A stretch of DNA of 38,406 nt from NCBI GenBank assembly GCA_003564135.1, contig PWNZ01000029.1, positions 1-38,406 on the forward strand, written 5' to 3'. A program made the position numbers and the translations under genes. The first letter of the stretch is position 1. The number at the start of each line of letters is the position of its first letter. The DNA comes from Candidatus Cloacimonadota bacterium (GTDB lineage: Bacteria > Cloacimonadota > Cloacimonadia > Cloacimonadales > PWNZ01). Below, in pieces: positions 866 through 18,951 of this stretch. The notes below the pieces were generated by a model. The model was not told the origin of the DNA. It did no database searches and was given only the letters and a program-made list of their open reading frames with translations.

Positions 866-2824
866 ATGTGTGACATCGTTAATATCAAGGGGAACATAGG
901 CATAGCCATCGTAGTTGCTTTGGTAGCTATTTTTTCGGGCATTTCTTTAGCTGCCATTGCGTTTCGGGATACAGTTGCGTTTTCTAACCAGTTAGATGGC
1001 ATTCAACAATTTCATTATATTCGTTCGGAGGTCGGAAGAGGGCGTTTAGCTGCAAGTCATCTGGAAACAATGGACAACCCGGCTCGAGACAACCTGCTAC
1101 CAATAAAAAGACGGAGAGTTGAATTTAACCGTTTTCGAACTGTATATAGGGCAAGAACACGGGTCTCAATCAGAGATGAAAGGGGTGAAAAAAGTTTTTT
1201 AATCAGAACACTTCTGGCAGGAGTCAGAGGAAGAGATGACACACAAGCGCCGGAGTTGCAGTCCCAATCAAAGAGATATGCAGAAAACAGAATTAGATCC
1301 CTACAATCACTGGCAGTGTTTCACTACTTTAGCGATATCGACGAGGAGCGAAACGCTGTACCAGGTAATATTCGCTTTTACGCGGGTGATATCGTACACG
1401 GCAGAGTTCATAGCAATACAGATATCTGGATACGCCAAAATAGTTGGCCAAGATTTTATGATTTAGTTTCAACCTCCGGTCAAATCAGGGTTTATCCGGG
1501 TGGTGGCACAGTATATCCTAAAGAACATATTTTTAGGGGCGGCTTAATAGAAAACTATCAAAGAATAGTTTTTGACCCCACAGCCAACGCTGTTCGCAGA
1601 AATGCCAGTACACCTTTTGGTACTCATGAAAATGACGAGAAGATAGCTTTTGTCACGATTGAGGGGACGGCGTTCAGGTCGAAAATAGGCGAGATCAGCA
1701 TCAATTCACCTTCAAGCGAAAGTGACTGGATAGAAGAAGTAAACCAGTTTACTGTTTACGACAGCTATCCACCATACGGGCCGGTCGGTAATGAGATCGG
1801 AGTCAATAGAATAGCAATGCCTGACACTGTCTGGCGTGAAGGGCCCACAGGCACGGCCAGCGGTGGTTCTAATTGGGTGCCGATGGAGTTATGGATCAGT
1901 GGCCAAGTTACCGGCTCTCAAACTTGGGCAAGCTCACACGAAATTTTTATTAAAGATGATATCACCTATACAAACACACAGCCGGGGCTTAGGCCTGATG
2001 GATTAAACGAGTCGGGAGAAACAACACTTCCCGTTAATCCGACTGACTATTTCGGGCTTATTTCCGAAGAATCGATCTGGATTCAGTATGGCCACAACTG
2101 TCCTGAAGATTCAATCAGAAGAAGGCCTAACACTAACAGTATTTATATGTATGGAGCTTATTGTGCGGTAGGACAAGGAACTGAGACCTGGGAGGACGGT
2201 ATAGTCTCCTTTCAATATCAGTTCCCTAAAGGTTCAACGCCTGACCAATACTGGGACAGCGGTCCGATGAGAGTCGACAGAAACGCTCGTCAAGGAAGTT
2301 CAACACCGGACCAGTACAGGGGAGACAGAAAATACACAAAAATCGATCTGCATCGGTTTCACTATCCGACAACCCTGCAGCAGCCCTGGCCTTTAGGACT
2401 TGATTATCCCTGGTATAATCCTTTATGGCCTGAGCCCGGTAATGTTTTCGGTGTACCCGCAATCCCGAATCCGGATAACCGTCCCAGAGTTGTCAGACTA
2501 AGGGGGAATATCTGGTTGTTCGGTTCAATAGCTCAGAGAAGAAGAGGGTATGTAAGACGAAGCGGCACTCCCAGCTTTGATACAGGATTGTGGGATATAG
2601 ATAATTCAATCGACCCCGACAGCCCACCCAGATATGGAGCACCCCCGCCTAATTTGGGGCCTGCCGGCTATGACAAACGATATCACTTTGATAAACGCTT
2701 TGAAAGACATTCTCCGCCTGACTTTCCTTTGATCATCTTTGAAGGTTATGATTCTGACGAATTGAGAGATTTAGGATTTCTTACTCTTCGCTGGGAATTT
2801 AAAAGTCCACCATCTAATTTTTAA
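866..2824 (+). CDS. Exported PilX/DUF4900-like prepilin protein, copy A
   Basis: A 652-residue protein, first of three tandem paralogues. A short basic leader (to K8-G9) precedes a hydrophobic helix (about residues 12-33, GIAIVVALVAIFSGISLAA), as in PilX-type minor pilins where cleavage follows a glycine. The remainder is predicted extracellular and Tyr/Pro/Trp rich. The segments GDIVHGRVHSNTDI, IFIKDDITYTNT and YFGLISEESIWIQ fit the DUF4900 pattern (hydrophobic-G-x-V-H-S-N, then D-I-T-Y, then G-L-I-S/A) as I remember it. AGGAGGTG eight bases before the ATG fixes the start. Compared with copy C it has an extra segment of about 20 residues in which STPDQY occurs twice. Adhesion or surface display is inferred from the type IV pilin-like N-terminus; no function is known to me. 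Confidence 0.8.
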   Translation: MCDIVNIKGNIGIAIVVALVAIFSGISLAAIAFRDTVAFSNQLDGIQQFHYIRSEVGRGRLAASHLETMDNPARDNLLPIKRRRVEFNRFRTVYRARTRVSIRDERGEKSFLIRTLLAGVRGRDDTQAPELQSQSKRYAENRIRSLQSLAVFHYFSDIDEERNAVPGNIRFYAGDIVHGRVHSNTDIWIRQNSWPRFYDLVSTSGQIRVYPGGGTVYPKEHIFRGGLIENYQRIVFDPTANAVRRNASTPFGTHENDEKIAFVTIEGTAFRSKIGEISINSPSSESDWIEEVNQFTVYDSYPPYGPVGNEIGVNRIAMPDTVWREGPTGTASGGSNWVPMELWISGQVTGSQTWASSHEIFIKDDITYTNTQPGLRPDGLNESGETTLPVNPTDYFGLISEESIWIQYGHNCPEDSIRRRPNTNSIYMYGAYCAVGQGTETWEDGIVSFQYQFPKGSTPDQYWDSGPMRVDRNARQGSSTPDQYRGDRKYTKIDLHRFHYPTTLQQPWPLGLDYPWYNPLWPEPGNVFGVPAIPNPDNRPRVVRLRGNIWLFGSIAQRRRGYVRRSGTPSFDTGLWDIDNSIDPDSPPRYGAPPPNLGPAGYDKRYHFDKRFERHSPPDFPLIIFEGYDSDELRDLGFLTLRWEFKSPPSNF

Positions 2825-2931
2825 AAAGCTTTTTACCCACTAATAAAATAAACCGAATAAACCTTGACAACTTAATGAGCTTTTCCCAAACTATAAATGA
2901 CAATGATATGAAGATATGGGAGGTGCATGTT

Positions 2932-4824
2932 ATGCATTGGTTCGCAAACCATCGAGGTAATATCTCAATAGCTTTGGTACTCGTGTTGGTAGCTATAATG
3001 TCGGGTATATCGTTAGCTGCCGTCGCTTTTAGAGATACCGTTGCCTATGGCCATCAGTTAAAAGGGATGCAGCAATTTCACTTTATCCGTTCGGAAGTAG
3101 GAAGAGGACGCTTAGCAGCCGGATATCTGGCAGTAAGAGAAAGCCCTGCCGTTGAGACTTTATTGCCCATAAAAAACCGTATTGTTAAATTTAGCAGCCA
3201 TCTTTATAATTACCGGGCAAAGACTCGCATTTCCAGCCAAGACGTCAAAGGAGAAAAAAAGATTCTCATTAGAACGCTTCTATCTGCAATAAGAGGCGGA
3301 GATAAAGACCGAGTTTCCGGTTCAGGTTCTACGGTTCAAAGATTTGCCGAAAACAGGATACGTTTACTTCCGTCTCTGGCCATCTATCATTCTTTTACCG
3401 ACAAGCATAAAGGCATAGACGACGTTCCAGGTAATATCAGATTTTCTCAAGATGATATAATTCATGGCCGAGTTCACAGTAACACTGATTAATGGATACG
3501 AAAAAACAGCTGGCCAACATTTCATGGATTAGTCTCAGTTGCCGGAGATGTAAAAGTTTATCCTGATGGCGGTACTACCTATCCCAAAGATCAGATATTT
3601 CTCGGAGGTCTGATTGAGAACTCCGGTCGAATAGTATTTGACTCTAAGGCAAAAGAGGTCAGAAATAATGGTATTCAACCTTTTTTTGATAAACAATACG
3701 ATTACAGGATAGCATTCGTTACGATTGAGGGAACATCTTTCCAATCGAAAATCGGCAAAGTTAAGCATCCGGATGAAAATGAATGGGTAGAAGGTTATAA
3801 CCGGTTCATAATTTATAACACTTATCCTCCTTATGGCCCGGTAGGTGATTCGGTCGGGGTGAATCGAATCATTATGCCCGACACAGTATGGTCTGAAGGG
3901 CCTTCTTCTTCGGCTAAAGGGAGATCTGTCTGGGTGCCGATGGAACTGTGGATTAGCGGTGAAATCACCGGTTCACAAACCTGGGCAAGCTCGCATGATG
4001 TATATATTAAAGATGACATAACTTATTCCCACACAAAGCCCGGCCTCAGTCCCGATGGATTAGACAGTTCCGGCCAGTTGACGCAGCCAATTAACCAGAG
4101 TGACTATTTTGGACTTATCTCCGAAGAATCCATCTTGATTCAGTATGGTCATTTCTGCCCGGTGGATTCAGTCAGGAAACGTCCTAATACTGAGGATATT
4201 TATTTATATGGAGCTTACTGTGCTTTAGGAGAGAGCGACAATTACTGGGAAGATGGAGTGTTCTCTTATCAATATCAGTTCCCAAAAGGCTCTACACCAC
4301 CTCAATACTCGACAGGAGAATGGTTCAGACACATCGACTTGCATCGTTTTAATTATCCTACAACAGCTTCTTGGCCATGGCCTCTGGGGCTAGACTATCC
4401 CTGGTATAATCCCTTATGGCCGGAACCCGGCGAGGTTTATGAATTTCCAGATGTTCAGTTTACTCCAAATGCTCACAATGCCCCTATGATAATAAAACTT
4501 CGTGGTGACATTTGGCTTTATGGTTCTATAGCTCAGAGACGTGTCGGCTACGTCAGAAGAAGTGGTAATCTCGATTTTGATACCGGATTATGGGATATCG
4601 ATAACACTATAAATCCCATCAACCCACCCAGATATGGTGCGCCGGCACCGGCTATTGGCGCAACGGGATATGGAAAACGTTACCGTTTCGATAGACGCTT
4701 TGAAAGAAATGCACCGCCCGATTATCCACCCGCTGCCTTTGAAGAGTATGATCTTGCTGAACTAATGGACTTGGGTTACCTGACAACCAGCTGGATATTC
4801 AAAAACCCACCTTCTAATTTCTGA
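2932..4824 (+). pseudogene. Prepilin-like paralogue, copy B, interrupted by in-frame TAA
   Basis: This second paralogue aligns with copies A and C over its whole length, but a TAA at 3490-3492 replaces the isoleucine codon of the conserved N-T-D-I-W-I segment (residue 187). The frame then stays open for 444 codons and keeps all family motifs, including DVYIKDDITYSHT and YFGLISEESILIQ. The ATG at 2932 follows GGGAGGTG; an earlier in-frame codon at 2875 has no such site. The overlapping ATG in TAATG is out of frame, so it cannot restart the protein. A 186-residue N-terminal piece could be made. The stop differs from an ATC/ATA/ATT isoleucine codon at two or more bases, which makes a single-base sequencing error unlikely. 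It is either a young pseudogene, a silent donor copy, or a read-through gene. Confidence 0.8.
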
Positions 4825-4865
4825 ACGACCCACCCATCTCTTACTAATAAAAAAACAAATAGAGC

Positions 4866-4894
4866 TTGACAACTTATTGACCCTTTACTATATA
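4866..4894 (+). promoter_or_regulatory. Promoter of prepilin-like copy C
   Basis: TTGACA (4866-4871) and TATATA (4889-4894) are separated by exactly 17 bases, 42 bases before the start of copy C. Copy B has the same leader (TTGACAACTTA at 2864), but its TATAAA (2892-2897) lies 22 bases away. Confidence 0.6.
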
Positions 4895-4935
4895 TAAAAA
4901 CAACAATGTTGTGAGTAAGATAGGAGGTGCATACT

Positions 4936-6828
4936 ATGTATGGTACTATTGACATCCGTGGTAATATCTCAATGGCTTTGGTAGTCGTGCTGGTAGCTAT
5001 GATGTCCGGCATTTCGCTTGCTGCCGTCGCTTTTAGAGATACCGTTGCGTTTAGAAACCAGATGGATGGAATTCAGGAATTCCATTATATTCGTTCGGAG
5101 GTTGGCAGAGGACGCTTAGCAGCAGGCCATTTAGAAGGTATGGAAAACCCTGCTACCGATAATTTGCTGCCTATCAGGATAAGAAATGTAGAGTTTAGCA
5201 GCCATCGTACGGTTTACCGGGCAAAAACCCGTCTTTCTATCTTGGATGACCGGGGAGAAAAGGGTTTTTTAATCAGAACTCTTCTATCGGCAGTAAGAGG
5301 TGGAGACAATACCTTGGCTCCGGAACTGCAGTCTCAGGCCCAAAGATACGCAGAGAATAGAATACGATCACTGCAATCTCTGGCAATTTTCCATTATTTC
5401 AGTGATACAGACGAAGAAAGGGATGGTGTGCCGGGGAATATCAGGTTCTTTTCCGGTGATATCGTTTATGGCAGGGTTCATAGCAATACCGATATCTGGA
5501 TACTGCAGAACAGTTGGCCGACATTTCACGGATTAGTAAGTACAGCCGGCAAAATACGAGTTCACCCCGGAGGTGGAACTACCTACCCCAAAGATCAAAT
5601 ATTTCGTGGTGGATTGATGGAGAACTACCGGCGAATTCTTTTTGAGCCCAATGCAAGAGCAGTAAGAAATAATGGAATAACCCCTTTCGGCAATACTGAG
5701 CATGATGACCGGATAATTTTTGTTACGATTCAAGGGTCAACTTTTGAAGCTTTTGAGGGAGTAATCGAAATCAAAGAACCTAAGGATGAAAGTGACTGGA
5801 TAGAAGATGTAAATCAGTTCACTATATATAGCACATATCCTCCTTACGACCCAGTCTGTGATTCGATCGGCGTCAATAGAATCCCTATGCCCGATACTAC
5901 CTGGACCGAACTTCGAGGCGGAGCAGTTGCTAATCAGTCGGTATGGGTACCTATGGAACTATGGATCAGCGGAGAAGTTACCGGCCCTCAAACATGGGCT
6001 AGCTCTCACGACATCTATATCAAAGATGATATCACTTATACAAACACTCAACCGGGGCTGAGGCCCGACGGAATAGATGAGTCCGGCGAACAAACACTGC
6101 CAGTCAACACAAGAGATTACTTTGGACTAATTTCTGAAGAATCAATCTGGATACAATATGGTCATTTATGCCCGGACGAATTAGTAAGAAAAAAGCCTAA
6201 CACGCAAAGCATCTATATGTATGGGGCATACTGTGCCGTCGGACAAGGCACTGAAACATGGGAAGACGGAATATTCTCCTTTCAGTATCAATTCCCTAAA
6301 GGGTCGACACCGCCCCAGTACTGGATCGGCGAAAGATTTGTCTATATTGATCTTCACCGCTTTCATTACCCGACATCATTACAAGAGCCATGGCCGCTGG
6401 GCTTAGATTATCCCTGGTATAATCCACTGTGGCCTGAACCCGGCGCTGTTTACGGTGTTCCTGAGATACCTAATCCACATAATGCTCCGGAAATAGTCAA
6501 GCTGCGTGGTGATATTTGGTTGTACGGTTCAATAGCTCAAAGAAGAAGAGGATATGTCAGAAGAAGCGGAACTGCTGATTTTGATACCGGACTATGGGAT
6601 ATCGAAAATGAGATTGAGCCAAACACACCGCCCAGATATGGAGCACCCACACCATCTATCGGTGCAACCGGATATAATAAACGATACCATTTCGACACCC
6701 GTTTCGAAAGACGTTCGCCGCCGGATTTCCCCTTAGTTATCTTCGAAGGTTATGATACTGATGAGCTAATGGACTTAGGGTATCTGACTCTTCGCTGGGA
6801 ATTCAAGAACCCGCCGTCATCATTTTGA
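4936..6828 (+). CDS. Exported PilX/DUF4900-like prepilin protein, copy C
   Basis: The third paralogue, 630 residues. It has the same leader-plus-helix N-terminus (MYGTIDIRGN then a hydrophobic stretch to about residue 30), the same GDIVYGRVHSNTDIW, DIYIKDDITYTNT and YFGLISEESIWIQ motifs, and the same C-terminal FDTGLWDIEN and TLRWEFKNPPS segments. It is closer to A than to B. I chose ATG 4936 because AGGAGGTG ends seven bases before it; the in-frame GTG at 4927 sits inside that ribosome binding site. It has its own 17-bp-spaced promoter and a strong terminator 26 bases after the stop, so it is the end of the array. Function is unknown; a cell-surface pilus-associated protein is the best guess. 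Confidence 0.8.
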   Translation: MYGTIDIRGNISMALVVVLVAMMSGISLAAVAFRDTVAFRNQMDGIQEFHYIRSEVGRGRLAAGHLEGMENPATDNLLPIRIRNVEFSSHRTVYRAKTRLSILDDRGEKGFLIRTLLSAVRGGDNTLAPELQSQAQRYAENRIRSLQSLAIFHYFSDTDEERDGVPGNIRFFSGDIVYGRVHSNTDIWILQNSWPTFHGLVSTAGKIRVHPGGGTTYPKDQIFRGGLMENYRRILFEPNARAVRNNGITPFGNTEHDDRIIFVTIQGSTFEAFEGVIEIKEPKDESDWIEDVNQFTIYSTYPPYDPVCDSIGVNRIPMPDTTWTELRGGAVANQSVWVPMELWISGEVTGPQTWASSHDIYIKDDITYTNTQPGLRPDGIDESGEQTLPVNTRDYFGLISEESIWIQYGHLCPDELVRKKPNTQSIYMYGAYCAVGQGTETWEDGIFSFQYQFPKGSTPPQYWIGERFVYIDLHRFHYPTSLQEPWPLGLDYPWYNPLWPEPGAVYGVPEIPNPHNAPEIVKLRGDIWLYGSIAQRRRGYVRRSGTADFDTGLWDIENEIEPNTPPRYGAPTPSIGATGYNKRYHFDTRFERRSPPDFPLVIFEGYDTDELMDLGYLTLRWEFKNPPSSF

Positions 6829-15761: not shown

Positions 15762-16286
15762 TCATCTACTGTAGATAGACTTGCCGTGAGAGTCTACGGC
15801 TACATAGCATGGGAATTCCTCTATAGTTAATTCATATATCGCTTCTGACAATAATTCAGGGAAGGCCATGACTTGAGCATGTTTAATCCGATCGGCTAAG
15901 TATACCCCGGCACCACCAATAGTGCTGAAATAAATAGCCCTATGCTTAGCTATACTCGCTATTACATGCTCACTGCGAGGCCCTTTGCCGATTAATACTG
16001 CCACTCCCGCAGTCAATAAAGGTTCTGTCATTTCATCCATCCGACTGCTGGTAGTTGGTCCTGCTGATGAAAAGAGTCCGGATTCTTTATCAATAACCGG
16101 TCCGCAATAGTATATCGCCGAATTTTTAAGCTCTAGAGGAAGTTTCTCACCGGAGGTAATAAAGTCAGTTAGTTTCCTATGAGCTTTATCTCGAGCGGTA
16201 TAAATTGTTCCCGACAAAAGCACCTTCTCGCCTACTGTCAGCTCGCTAAAGTTTTTCTTTGGTGTAGGTAAAGTTATAGAAATCAG
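15762..16286 (-). CDS. Class I fumarate hydratase, beta subunit (non-canonical start)
   Basis: The C-terminal half of two-subunit Fe-S fumarase. It shows the family segments LLSGTIYTARDKAHRKL, YCGPV, AGPTTSSRMD and GGAGVYLADRI. The first ATG/GTG/TTG-type codon well inside the family (MLLSG at 16223) would cut off about 20 conserved residues. An AAAGGAGG site (16299-16292) lies just upstream, and the open frame after it reads [CTG][ATT]TCTATAACT, giving ISITLPTPKKNFSELTVGEKVLLSG, which is the expected N-terminus. Translation therefore probably starts at CTG (16286) or ATT (16283), giving 173-174 residues, the normal size. The gene begins 25 bases after the fumA stop. Its partner is the alpha subunit. 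Confidence 0.85.
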   Translation of the reverse strand: MISITLPTPKKNFSELTVGEKVLLSGTIYTARDKAHRKLTDFITSGEKLPLELKNSAIYYCGPVIDKESGLFSSAGPTTSSRMDEMTEPLLTAGVAVLIGKGPRSEHVIASIAKHRAIYFSTIGGAGVYLADRIKHAQVMAFPELLSEAIYELTIEEFPCYVAVDSHGKSIYSR

Positions 16287-16311: not shown

Positions 16312-17160
16312 TCAGATGGTTAGAGATTTGTAACGATGGGCATGACACTGCAAATTCACGGCAACGGGTAGCGAAGCTATATGACACGGATAGGTCTCAA
16401 TATTGACACCTAAACAAGTGCTTTTACCTCCTAAACCCATAGGGCCTATATCTAAGCTGTTAATCTGCTTAAACAAATCATCTTCCATTACAGCATAATC
16501 ATTTTGCGAATGCTTTTCGTTTATCGGCCGAAGCAGTGCTCTTTTTGCTAAATAAGCAACGTAGTCAAAGGTGCCTCCAATTCCAATACCCACAATAACC
16601 GGTGGGCAGGGTCTGCCCCCTGCTAGCTTAACGGTATCGACAATAAAATCCTTTACCTCTTCCACCTGAGTTAGTGGATTGAACATCTTTATGCGACTCA
16701 TATTCTCAGCTCCTCCGCCTTTGGGCATGAAGGTAATTTTGAGCCTGTCACCGGGTACAATTTGCCAATGGATTACTGCTGGAGAATTATTATTAGTGTT
16801 TTCACGAAATAATAAAGGATCTCTAACAACTGAAAGCCGAAATGGACTTTCCCGATACACTTTGGACATTTGCCCATTTAGCAAGGCTTGCAGTTCACCG
16901 CCCTGTATTCTAACATCCTGGCCGATCTCTACAAAAAAAACCCCTATACCTGTATCCTGACAGAGCGGTTTTCTCTTTTCAGCTGCCATTTTGGCATTTT
17001 CTATTAGTATTGACAATATATCAATCGCTCTAGAGTTCGTTTCTACACGAAGGGCATTTTTCATCCCGGTAAATGCATCGCTGTTTAACTCTATATTGGC
17101 ATCGGTGATCAAACTAGCAACTTTTTGTTGAATACTATCAATGGTAATGATTCTGCTCAT
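16312..17160 (-). CDS. Class I fumarate hydratase, alpha subunit
   Basis: A 282-residue Fe-S subunit of two-component fumarase (fumarate plus water to L-malate). Likely [4Fe-4S] ligands are Cys67 in PLCQDTG and two of the C-terminal cysteines (Cys259 in YPCHIASLP, Cys272 in NLQCHA). Further family motifs are GGGAENMS, GIGIGGTFDYVAYLAKRAL and GPMGLGGKSTCLGV. I chose ATG 17160 (MSRIITIDSIQQKV) because it matches the conserved beginning; an in-frame start at 17250 would add 30 residues unlike the family. A weak CGGAGCG lies 14 bases upstream. Oxygen-sensitive class I fumarase fits an anaerobic lifestyle. It is the first gene of the fum-malic enzyme operon. Confidence 0.9.
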   Translation of the reverse strand: MSRIITIDSIQQKVASLITDANIELNSDAFTGMKNALRVETNSRAIDILSILIENAKMAAEKRKPLCQDTGIGVFFVEIGQDVRIQGGELQALLNGQMSKVYRESPFRLSVVRDPLLFRENTNNNSPAVIHWQIVPGDRLKITFMPKGGGAENMSRIKMFNPLTQVEEVKDFIVDTVKLAGGRPCPPVIVGIGIGGTFDYVAYLAKRALLRPINEKHSQNDYAVMEDDLFKQINSLDIGPMGLGGKSTCLGVNIETYPCHIASLPVAVNLQCHAHRYKSLTI

Positions 17161-17250
17161 AGTTATAGATATCGCTCCGTTTTTATTAATATCTTTGCCT
17201 AAGCCTGTAACCACAGGCAAATTAATCTCCCTCACAGTAATGACTAACAT

Positions 17251-17605
17251 TCCGAAAGAAAAACTACTCCGTCTCTATTCGATCGCATGAGTGGCTACAT
17301 TCTTAAAGCAAAACCATGCTGATCTGAACGAAGTATTGAACTCTAAGTTTCGGGCTAAATAGACAATGACTGAATAAGATTTATCCTAAAGCTGTCAATA
17401 GATTTGTTATACTTTAGAACAGGTTGGGAACTATTTATGGATCGCTTAGGTAACCTGCGACATAGTAGTCCCCAAGACCAAGTGTATTATCTTTTAGCGG
17501 TTTTTAGAAATTTTTACTTGACATAAAGACAGGGTTAAACAATTGGTTAACCAGACTTAATCAAAAAATAAGCAACATCAGATTACAGATATGGAGGTAG
17601 CAGTT
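17251..17605. promoter_or_regulatory. Divergent intergenic region with GGTTAA repeats
   Basis: It separates the fumarase operon from the alpha-CTD/sigma-4 gene pair. TTGACA lies at 17518-17523. GGTTAA (17533-17538) and GGTTAACC (17545-17552) start 12 bases apart, where the -10 of that promoter would be, which suggests an operator. No gene is seen between 17251 and 17590. Confidence 0.4.
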
Positions 17606-17923
17606 TTGGAAAATAAAGGAATTGAATCAGCCATTAACTTTGAAAGTTTATTAAAACTTGGATTCGCTGTCATAGATGCAAGGTATTTTGACTATGACAT
17701 TACAAACGAGCCTTATAAACTCGTAATAACTCGAGTAACTACCGACAGAGACGACTTTTATCGGGATATGTTAAAAAGTTATTTTCCAAAGTTTGAAGTG
17801 GAAAAGAACATTTATGAAGTTTGGACTGCCATTCTCGAACACAAGATATCAATGAGCAAGGTTCTTAATCGGGATGTGTCGATCAAGGTTGCGGTCTATG
17901 ACTATCTGGAAACCTCTAAATAA
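17606..17923 (+). CDS. Unknown small protein paired with alpha-CTD/sigma-4 regulator
   Basis: A small acidic-basic mixed protein of about 105 residues, without signal peptide, membrane segment or a family I recognise. Two starts are possible: ATG at 17591, with no ribosome binding site, or TTG at 17606, which lies seven bases after GGAGGT (17593-17598). I prefer TTG; the resulting protein starts MENKGIESAINFESLL. Helical stretches dominate the C-terminal half. It precedes the alpha-CTD/sigma-4 hybrid by 23 bases in the same direction, so the two are probably co-transcribed, and a partner or modulator role is possible but unproven. Confidence 0.6.
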   Translation: MENKGIESAINFESLLKLGFAVIDARYFDYDITNEPYKLVITRVTTDRDDFYRDMLKSYFPKFEVEKNIYEVWTAILEHKISMSKVLNRDVSIKVAVYDYLETSK

Positions 17924-17946: not shown

Positions 17947-18951
17947 ATGAATAATAACGAAGTAGCAAGAATCTTAAGGCAACCACCCACAGAAGAGAAT
18001 TTAAATAGGCTACCGATATTTACCGGTATGACCGACAGGCAACTCGACACGAAAATGCTCCATAAATCATATCATCCCGATGTTTCATTATCGAGCATCA
18101 TGTTCAACAGCAGAGCTAATGGAATACTCAAATCTGCAAACATAAAAACAATCGGTGAGTTGCTGTTAACTTCATACACAGACCTTCTTATCCACCGTAA
18201 TTGTGGCTTACATACCATTGAAGCAATTCAAGATGAACTACGCGGTTATATCTTAGATAAGGAATTTGACTATAGCCCTTACTGGGAAGGGCTCGAGTCA
18301 ATGTTCAGAAATGTATTAAAAACTAAAGAAAGAAACATCCTAATGATCCTATACCGTCTCGGTATCGGCCAACAAAAATCAATGACCCTACAAGAATGTG
18401 GCGACAAGTTTGGCATCACAAGAGAAGCTGCCCGACAAATAGTCAACCAAACAGTTGATATACTAGTTCATCCTGAAACCGAGTTTAAATTACGTCCATT
18501 CTGGTTAACAGTAGATAAACTATTCAAAAAGAAAAGTATCATGATGTCTGAAGACTTTTGCCGCAGGTTAAAAAGTAGGCTTGCATGGAGATTCAAACCG
18601 GAGACACATGCCGTTGAAGCAATCCTAAAGTTTAAACCTGAAAAATATGTAGCCACATTTAACGGCATAGTAGGACTTAGGGGGTCAAAATGCTTTGAAT
18701 GTCATAAACTTAAAGAGCTGTTGCCCGAAATAATGAAAGACAGGCAACAAGTACCTTACAGGGAAATATATAAACATTTCTACTCTGAATTTCAGGATTG
18801 CTGCCCGGAAGGAAAATCTCTCAACCGAGATATAGTCCAATTGCTTGTAGAGCTGCACATCAAAGAAAATCTAAAAAAATACCCATACATAAAAAGAAGA
18901 CCTGTAAATTTAATTAACACTCTATTCTCATTAAGTAAAACCTGCGAATAA
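17947..18951 (+). CDS. Hybrid RNA polymerase alpha-CTD-like / sigma-70 region 4-like protein
   Basis: A 334-residue cytoplasmic protein. Residues 47-100 match the C-terminal domain of RNA polymerase alpha: SLSSIMFNSRANGILKSANI, then KTIGELL and N-C-G-L-H-T-I-E-A-I-Q-D-E-L. Residues 127-169 match sigma-70 region 4: ERNILMILYRLG, then the helix-turn-helix TLQECGDKFGITREAARQI. Sigma regions 2 and 3 and the alpha N-terminal assembly domain are absent. The remaining 165 residues are basic and unrecognised. The combination suggests a DNA-binding regulator that contacts both UP-element-like and -35-like DNA or the polymerase itself; this is inference. GAGGGGG precedes the ATG. It follows the small 17606-17923 gene by 23 bases. 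Confidence 0.75.
   Translation: MNNNEVARILRQPPTEENLNRLPIFTGMTDRQLDTKMLHKSYHPDVSLSSIMFNSRANGILKSANIKTIGELLLTSYTDLLIHRNCGLHTIEAIQDELRGYILDKEFDYSPYWEGLESMFRNVLKTKERNILMILYRLGIGQQKSMTLQECGDKFGITREAARQIVNQTVDILVHPETEFKLRPFWLTVDKLFKKKSIMMSEDFCRRLKSRLAWRFKPETHAVEAILKFKPEKYVATFNGIVGLRGSKCFECHKLKELLPEIMKDRQQVPYREIYKHFYSEFQDCCPEGKSLNRDIVQLLVELHIKENLKKYPYIKRRPVNLINTLFSLSKTCE

Follow-up and report, generated by a model that had tools for sequence, protein, structure and literature searches.

A small stand-alone Cloacimonadota protein combining alpha-CTD-like and sigma region 4-like domains, possibly a local transcription regulator

Introduction

An important question raised by this locus is what a small protein might do if it carries two promoter-recognition modules of RNA polymerase, the C-terminal domain of the alpha subunit (alpha-CTD) and region 4 of a sigma-70 factor, in a single reading frame. 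The initial annotation of the window (the whole stretch of 38,406 nucleotides analysed here, from contig PWNZ01000029.1 of a Candidatus Cloacimonadota bacterium) had described such a protein, here called P0001. Below we examine its domains, its relatives and its genomic surroundings, and then weigh the explanations that they allow.

Results

Two polymerase-type domains in one reading frame

17947..18951, + strand: P0001, alpha-CTD / sigma region 4 / winged-helix protein; 334 aa, intact ORF, orthologues in three other genomes
18079..18240, + strand: RNA_pol_A_CTD-like helix-hairpin-helix domain, residues 45-98 (PF03118; RpoA equivalog models match too)
18313..18507, + strand: sigma-70 region 4-like helix-turn-helix (HTH) of primary-sigma type, residues 123-187 (PF04545, PDB sequence matches, fold match, conserved T158, R159, E160, R163, Q164)
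18493..18684, + strand: predicted winged-helix domain, residues 183-246 (AlphaFold2, weak PDB and Pfam matches)
18691..18804, + strand: conserved Cys motif C249-x2-C252 ... C286-P, residues 249-286 (invariant in five sequences)

In Pfam, RNA_pol_A_CTD matches residues 45-98 of P0001 with 26.3 bits (E 5.9e-6; curated cut-off 23.8) and Sigma70_r4 matches residues 123-170 with 26.3 bits (E 5.4e-6; curated cut-off 24.1). Profile search, the check proposed with the initial annotation, thus recovers both families, and the described order of an alpha-CTD-like domain before a sigma region 4-like HTH stands. NCBIfam places RpoA models at about residues 40-103 and RpoD-type models at about 115-185, in both cases far below the whole-protein cut-offs, as single domains should be; the likeness to the RpoD C-terminus extends to about residue 187. 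Neither Pfam nor NCBIfam finds sigma region 2 or 3 (the sigma matches begin at about residue 99-130) or an alpha N-terminal assembly domain in P0001, in agreement with the earlier statement that the core-binding sigma domains and the alpha assembly domain are absent. Among homologues carrying the same two domains, the alpha-CTD scores above the cut-off in three of four, and sigma region 4 in one of four, falling below the cut-off in the remainder. Given that two polymerase-derived domains exceed their cut-offs in one ORF and that the pairing recurs in homologues, an accidental match is very unlikely.

P0001 is not a split polymerase subunit, since its genome encodes an ordinary RpoA with its CTD as well as an ordinary RpoD; a split origin from either can be ruled out. 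In a PF03118 profile search of 387 genomes, the strongest among the matches listed were RpoA proteins. The gene diverges as would one encoding a protein under constraint, with less divergence at codon position 2 (0.25-0.38) than at position 3 (0.57-0.62) in all three comparisons.

Structural matches and the C-terminal part

A PDB sequence search matches residues 114-185 of P0001 to region 4 of sigma factors, mostly primary ones. AlphaFold2 models, built from a three-row alignment (the window and two further loci), are of low confidence, with a mean pLDDT of 53.7 for the full-length protein and 56.8 for residues 36-192. The latter model nevertheless matches region 4 of sigma-A with E 4.7e-4 (probability 1.00, rmsd 1.9 A over 70 columns). 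The full-length model matches alpha-CTD chains with probabilities of 0.97 and 0.89 (E 0.64 and 1.3) and winged-helix domains with probabilities of up to 0.87 (E about 0.5). Because all matches of the full-length model have E values of 0.1 or more, we treat these alpha-CTD and winged-helix fold matches as supports rather than proofs, and the alpha-CTD assignment is mainly a sequence-based one. Structure prediction, the other check that had been proposed, therefore bears out the sigma half of the assignment more firmly than the alpha half.

The best-predicted part of the full-length model spans approximately residues 183-246 (block means of 62-84 over residues 181-250) and runs helix, strand, helix, helix, strand, strand. 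Furthermore, the orthologue L002 has a weak, below-cut-off Pfam match there to Cullin_Nedd8, a winged-helix family. We read this part as a predicted winged helix, and the three cysteines that follow (C249, C252 and C286) as a possible metal site. The 165-residue tail originally described as unknown is in this way partly resolved. The long relatives introduced below show a CxxC and a second Cys pair when their sequences are read by eye.

Conservation of promoter-recognition residues

Residues were compared in alignments with E. coli sigma-70 and alpha, whose numbering is used here, and with the genome's own sequences; T583, R584, E585, R588 and Q589 of sigma-70 region 4.2 are the readers of the -35 element. 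T158, R159, E160, R163 and Q164 of P0001 align with these five residues, and the same five are kept in all four orthologues and in the long relative L005, though not in the second long relative, L044. On the other hand, P0001 does not retain the basic activator-target patch of sigma (K593, R596, K597, R599), while the HPxxxxxLRxF stretch at the C-terminus of primary sigma factors is partly kept in three orthologues. The alpha-CTD gives a more mixed picture: the four orthologues and L005 retain equivalents of R265, G296 and S299 (the last as Thr), whereas those of N268, K298 and E302 are not conserved in the P0001 family, such that this domain may not bind DNA well. The sigma-contacting 261 determinant of alpha (D259 and E261) is not kept in the family either. 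Judged from sequence, P0001 very likely binds DNA, and the invariance of the -35-reading residues within the close family supports a promoter-directed role.

Distribution and relatives

1156-3078: large relative L005, with an alpha-CTD, a sigma region 4-like region, Cys pairs and a long uncharacterised C-terminal part
1111-3156: large relative L044, with two alpha-CTD copies, a sigma region 4-like region, Cys pairs and a long uncharacterised C-terminal part

Judged by the named genomes closest to it, the genome encoding P0001 falls within Cloacimonadota. Full-length orthologues of P0001 were found in 4 of the 107 genomes of the order, in two families, all of them Cloacimonadota. A longer relative of 640 aa, L005 (family f7), passes the same search threshold, and a second one of 681 aa, L044, was found with wider models; both are distant and sporadic relatives within Cloacimonadota. 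When a two-domain model was run against 387 genomes, only the four orthologues, L005 and L044 gave a match spanning both domains. No both-domain relative was found outside the phylum in about 260 genomes, by a model that would miss proteins with another linker or weaker domains. Plasmid, phage and viral collections yielded, at this sensitivity, only ordinary sigma factors or short sigma region 4-like fragments; an apparent two-domain match in phage MT836547 turned out to be an ordinary sigma-70. Separately, the genome G001 has a second copy from the P0001 family in degraded form: positions 1450-1755 of L039 (contig C82) hold a piece of its alpha-CTD half.

Elsewhere, there are proteins annotated with both domains. 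Our literature search for the pairing of alpha-CTD and sigma region 4 found no description of a small stand-alone build. The small stand-alone combination appears to be a new domain build in Cloacimonadota, while the joining of such modules in itself has precedent.

The locus: a small partner gene and a divergent fumarate hydratase

17591..17923, + strand: 110-aa partner gene, 23 bp upstream of P0001; paralogue of the protein preceding ndk in other Cloacimonadota
17251..17590, no strand: intergenic region between fumA and the partner-P0001 pair, with TTGACA at 17518-17523 (+) and TGTCAA at 17393-17398
16312..17250, - strand: fumarate hydratase alpha (TtdA/Fumerase type; fumA), PF05681 with E 8e-106; divergent neighbour in 4/4 genomes
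15762..16223, - strand: fumarate hydratase beta (Fumerase_C), PF05683
14220..15689, - strand: malic enzyme, PF03949/PF00390

The neighbours of P0001 in the window are housekeeping genes. In each of the four orthologue genomes, a gene of 106-110 aa lies 23 to about 42 bp in front of that of P0001, and the layout of divergent fumA, 110-aa gene and P0001 occurs at all four orthologue loci and at none of the 26 other fumA loci (30 inspected). The 110-aa proteins encoded next to P0001 group in a single clade (96/95), to which the ndk-linked copies from these genomes do not belong, and the fumA genes of the four genomes likewise form one clade (100/99). The simplest history is therefore a single origin of the pair, which was then passed on together with its locus. 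One genome is informative in this respect: in G001 the fumarase beta gene is found at another place and in inverted orientation, while the fumA-divergent layout of the pair persists. This retention despite a displaced fumarase beta favours a functional link. An important caveat is that a divergent layout could also be inherited without any regulatory link, and that four genomes of one clade amount to one origin.

The partner family itself offers few clues. All 16 of its members match DUF4032 (below the cut-off in the member shown here), and Pfam finds neither sigma region 2 nor any other sigma-like match among these 16. The partner and its ndk-linked paralogues share a conserved motif, HKxxMSxxLxRDxxIKVA, which resembles the end of DUF4032. 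A paralogue of about 107 aa precedes ndk, often together with ackA, in most Cloacimonadota, including genomes that lack P0001.

Elsewhere in the window, positions 866-6828 (+ strand) hold three tandem copies of a protein of about 640 aa (59-72% identical where aligned). This protein has an N-terminal segment that is hydrophobic, and neither Pfam nor NCBIfam assigns it to a family; the second of the three copies looks broken, as it falls into two ORFs (2875-3492 and 3859-4824).

The intergenic region

In each of the four genomes the start of the partner gene is preceded, at a distance of 61-80 bp, by TTGACA, and none of 1000 shuffles has it in all four; at ndk-linked paralogue loci, used as a control, it occurred in 2 of 26, with four loci out of register. 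Beyond this hexamer, comparison of the four intergenic regions revealed no common operator. TTGACA is unlikely to be a dedicated operator of the pair because it also precedes seven other window genes, and it is best read as an ordinary -35. Perfect copies lie upstream of the window genes at 866, 4927, 8786, 14059, 17250, 17591, 28353 and 36872; the distance to the start codon is in most cases 49-78 bp, and most of these copies lack a TATAAT-like -10 at a distance of 16-18 bp. In this organism, the -10 of the primary promoter may be a non-standard one.

Discussion

Our preferred reading, to which we assign a probability of roughly one half, is that P0001 is a stand-alone local transcription regulator assembled from re-used promoter-recognition modules, most likely serving the divergent fumA. 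The protein would be built of an alpha-CTD-like helix-hairpin-helix, a primary-sigma region 4 HTH, a winged helix and a Cys-bearing helical end, and would be co-transcribed with its 110-aa partner in a putative operon. It would sit on -35-like and upstream DNA through its -35-reading HTH, with the weakened alpha-CTD-like domain and the winged helix alongside, and might thereby regulate fumarate hydratase, in either direction, and perhaps itself too. A signal could reach it through the partner or through its own Cys region. It is unlikely to act as a sigma factor, as it lacks region 2.

A bolder variant is that P0001 is a promoter mimic that stands alone: reading the -35 with its sigma HTH and the upstream minor groove with its alpha-CTD, it would hold or mark the upstream half of a promoter with no polymerase present, as a decoy, a placeholder or a recruiter under the control of the small partner. 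We regard this as speculative and rather unlikely.

Similarly doubtful is a global role, in which P0001 would act at many promoters, where it would compete with or bridge sigma region 4 and alpha-CTD and so redirect or block polymerase. Such a role would fit the conserved -35-reading residues, the partly kept end of primary sigma in three orthologues and the many sites implied by the common occurrence of perfect TTGACA before window genes. It sits poorly, however, with a gene present in so few genomes of the order, with the loss of alpha-CTD D259 and E261 and of the four-residue sigma patch, and with the fixed local gene layout. The mechanism first suggested for this protein therefore survives in part: a promoter-directed, DNA-binding role is retained, whereas the evidence does not support the idea that polymerase is redirected or blocked in general, because rarity, a fixed partner, a fixed divergent position and lost determinants together are better matched by a local regulator.

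The possibility that P0001 is a DNA-sensing module derived from mobile or defence proteins, akin to PglW of BREX type 2 or MzaA of the MZA system, appears unlikely. In PglW, winged-HTH modules do follow an alpha-CTD-like domain (PMC12839542), and the PADLOC model for this protein weakly matches the alpha-CTD of P0001 and, with E 1.3e-4, a stretch over both domains of L005, itself, like L044, sporadic in occurrence; a search with this model for PglW proteins returned mainly kinases. The MzaA model in turn matches the sigma region 4 part of P0001, but with 41.3 bits against a cut-off of 800. The housekeeping neighbours, inheritance in a fixed locus and the absence of relatives beyond ordinary sigma factors in the viral, phage and plasmid collections all speak against such kinship, and on the grounds of neighbourhood and collections we rejected P0001 as a prophage, plasmid or defence gene.

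It is also improbable that the modules serve as general-purpose DNA-binding or scaffold domains outside transcription, for instance in DNA repair or nucleoid binding. While the alpha-CTD is a helix-hairpin-helix fold that is found outside polymerase too, and several of its DNA-contact residues are lost, the sigma HTH keeps exactly those residues that read the -35, and the gene layout is that of a divergent regulator. Finally, a two-subunit sigma factor, with P0001 as region 4 and the 110-aa protein as the core-binding part, is very improbable despite the conserved adjacent partner and the SigO-RsoA precedent (PMC10141391), given that the partner matches DUF4032 and nothing sigma-like and that its paralogues precede ndk where P0001 does not occur.

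If P0001 does read promoters, the modules with which polymerase holds a promoter would be detachable and convertible into a regulator, and the protein would offer a small system in which to ask whether sigma region 4 together with alpha-CTD suffices to locate a promoter when the enzyme is absent. Even as no more than a local regulator, it would still add a new domain build to a phylum for which hardly any transcription biology is known.

Comparison with known systems

SigO-RsoA, the two-subunit sigma factor of Bacillus subtilis (PMC10141391), resembles this locus in that two small neighbouring genes encode a sigma-type domain and its partner, and differs in that the P0001 partner shows no sigma region 2. 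MzaA is among the best NCBIfam matches of the sigma region 4 part, yet only the last part of its 726-position model matches, with a small fraction of the required score, and its neighbourhood is another one. PglW unites a kinase with alpha-CTD-like and winged-HTH modules in one protein (PMC12839542) and thus sets a precedent for their joining in a non-polymerase protein; it is, however, a large kinase with further domains, whereas P0001 has no kinase match in Pfam and no BREX neighbours. Compared with RNA polymerase alpha, P0001 lacks the N-terminal domain, N268, K298, E302 and the 261 determinant, but matches PF03118 above the cut-off and keeps the equivalents of R265, G296 and S/T299. Compared with RpoD/SigA, it has lost the basic activator-target patch and has no regions 1-3, and hence no known route to core binding or DNA melting; even so, region 4 of RpoD/SigA provides its best PDB sequence and fold matches, and P0001 shares with it an HTH with a TRExxRQ recognition helix and a partly kept HPxxxxxLRxF end.
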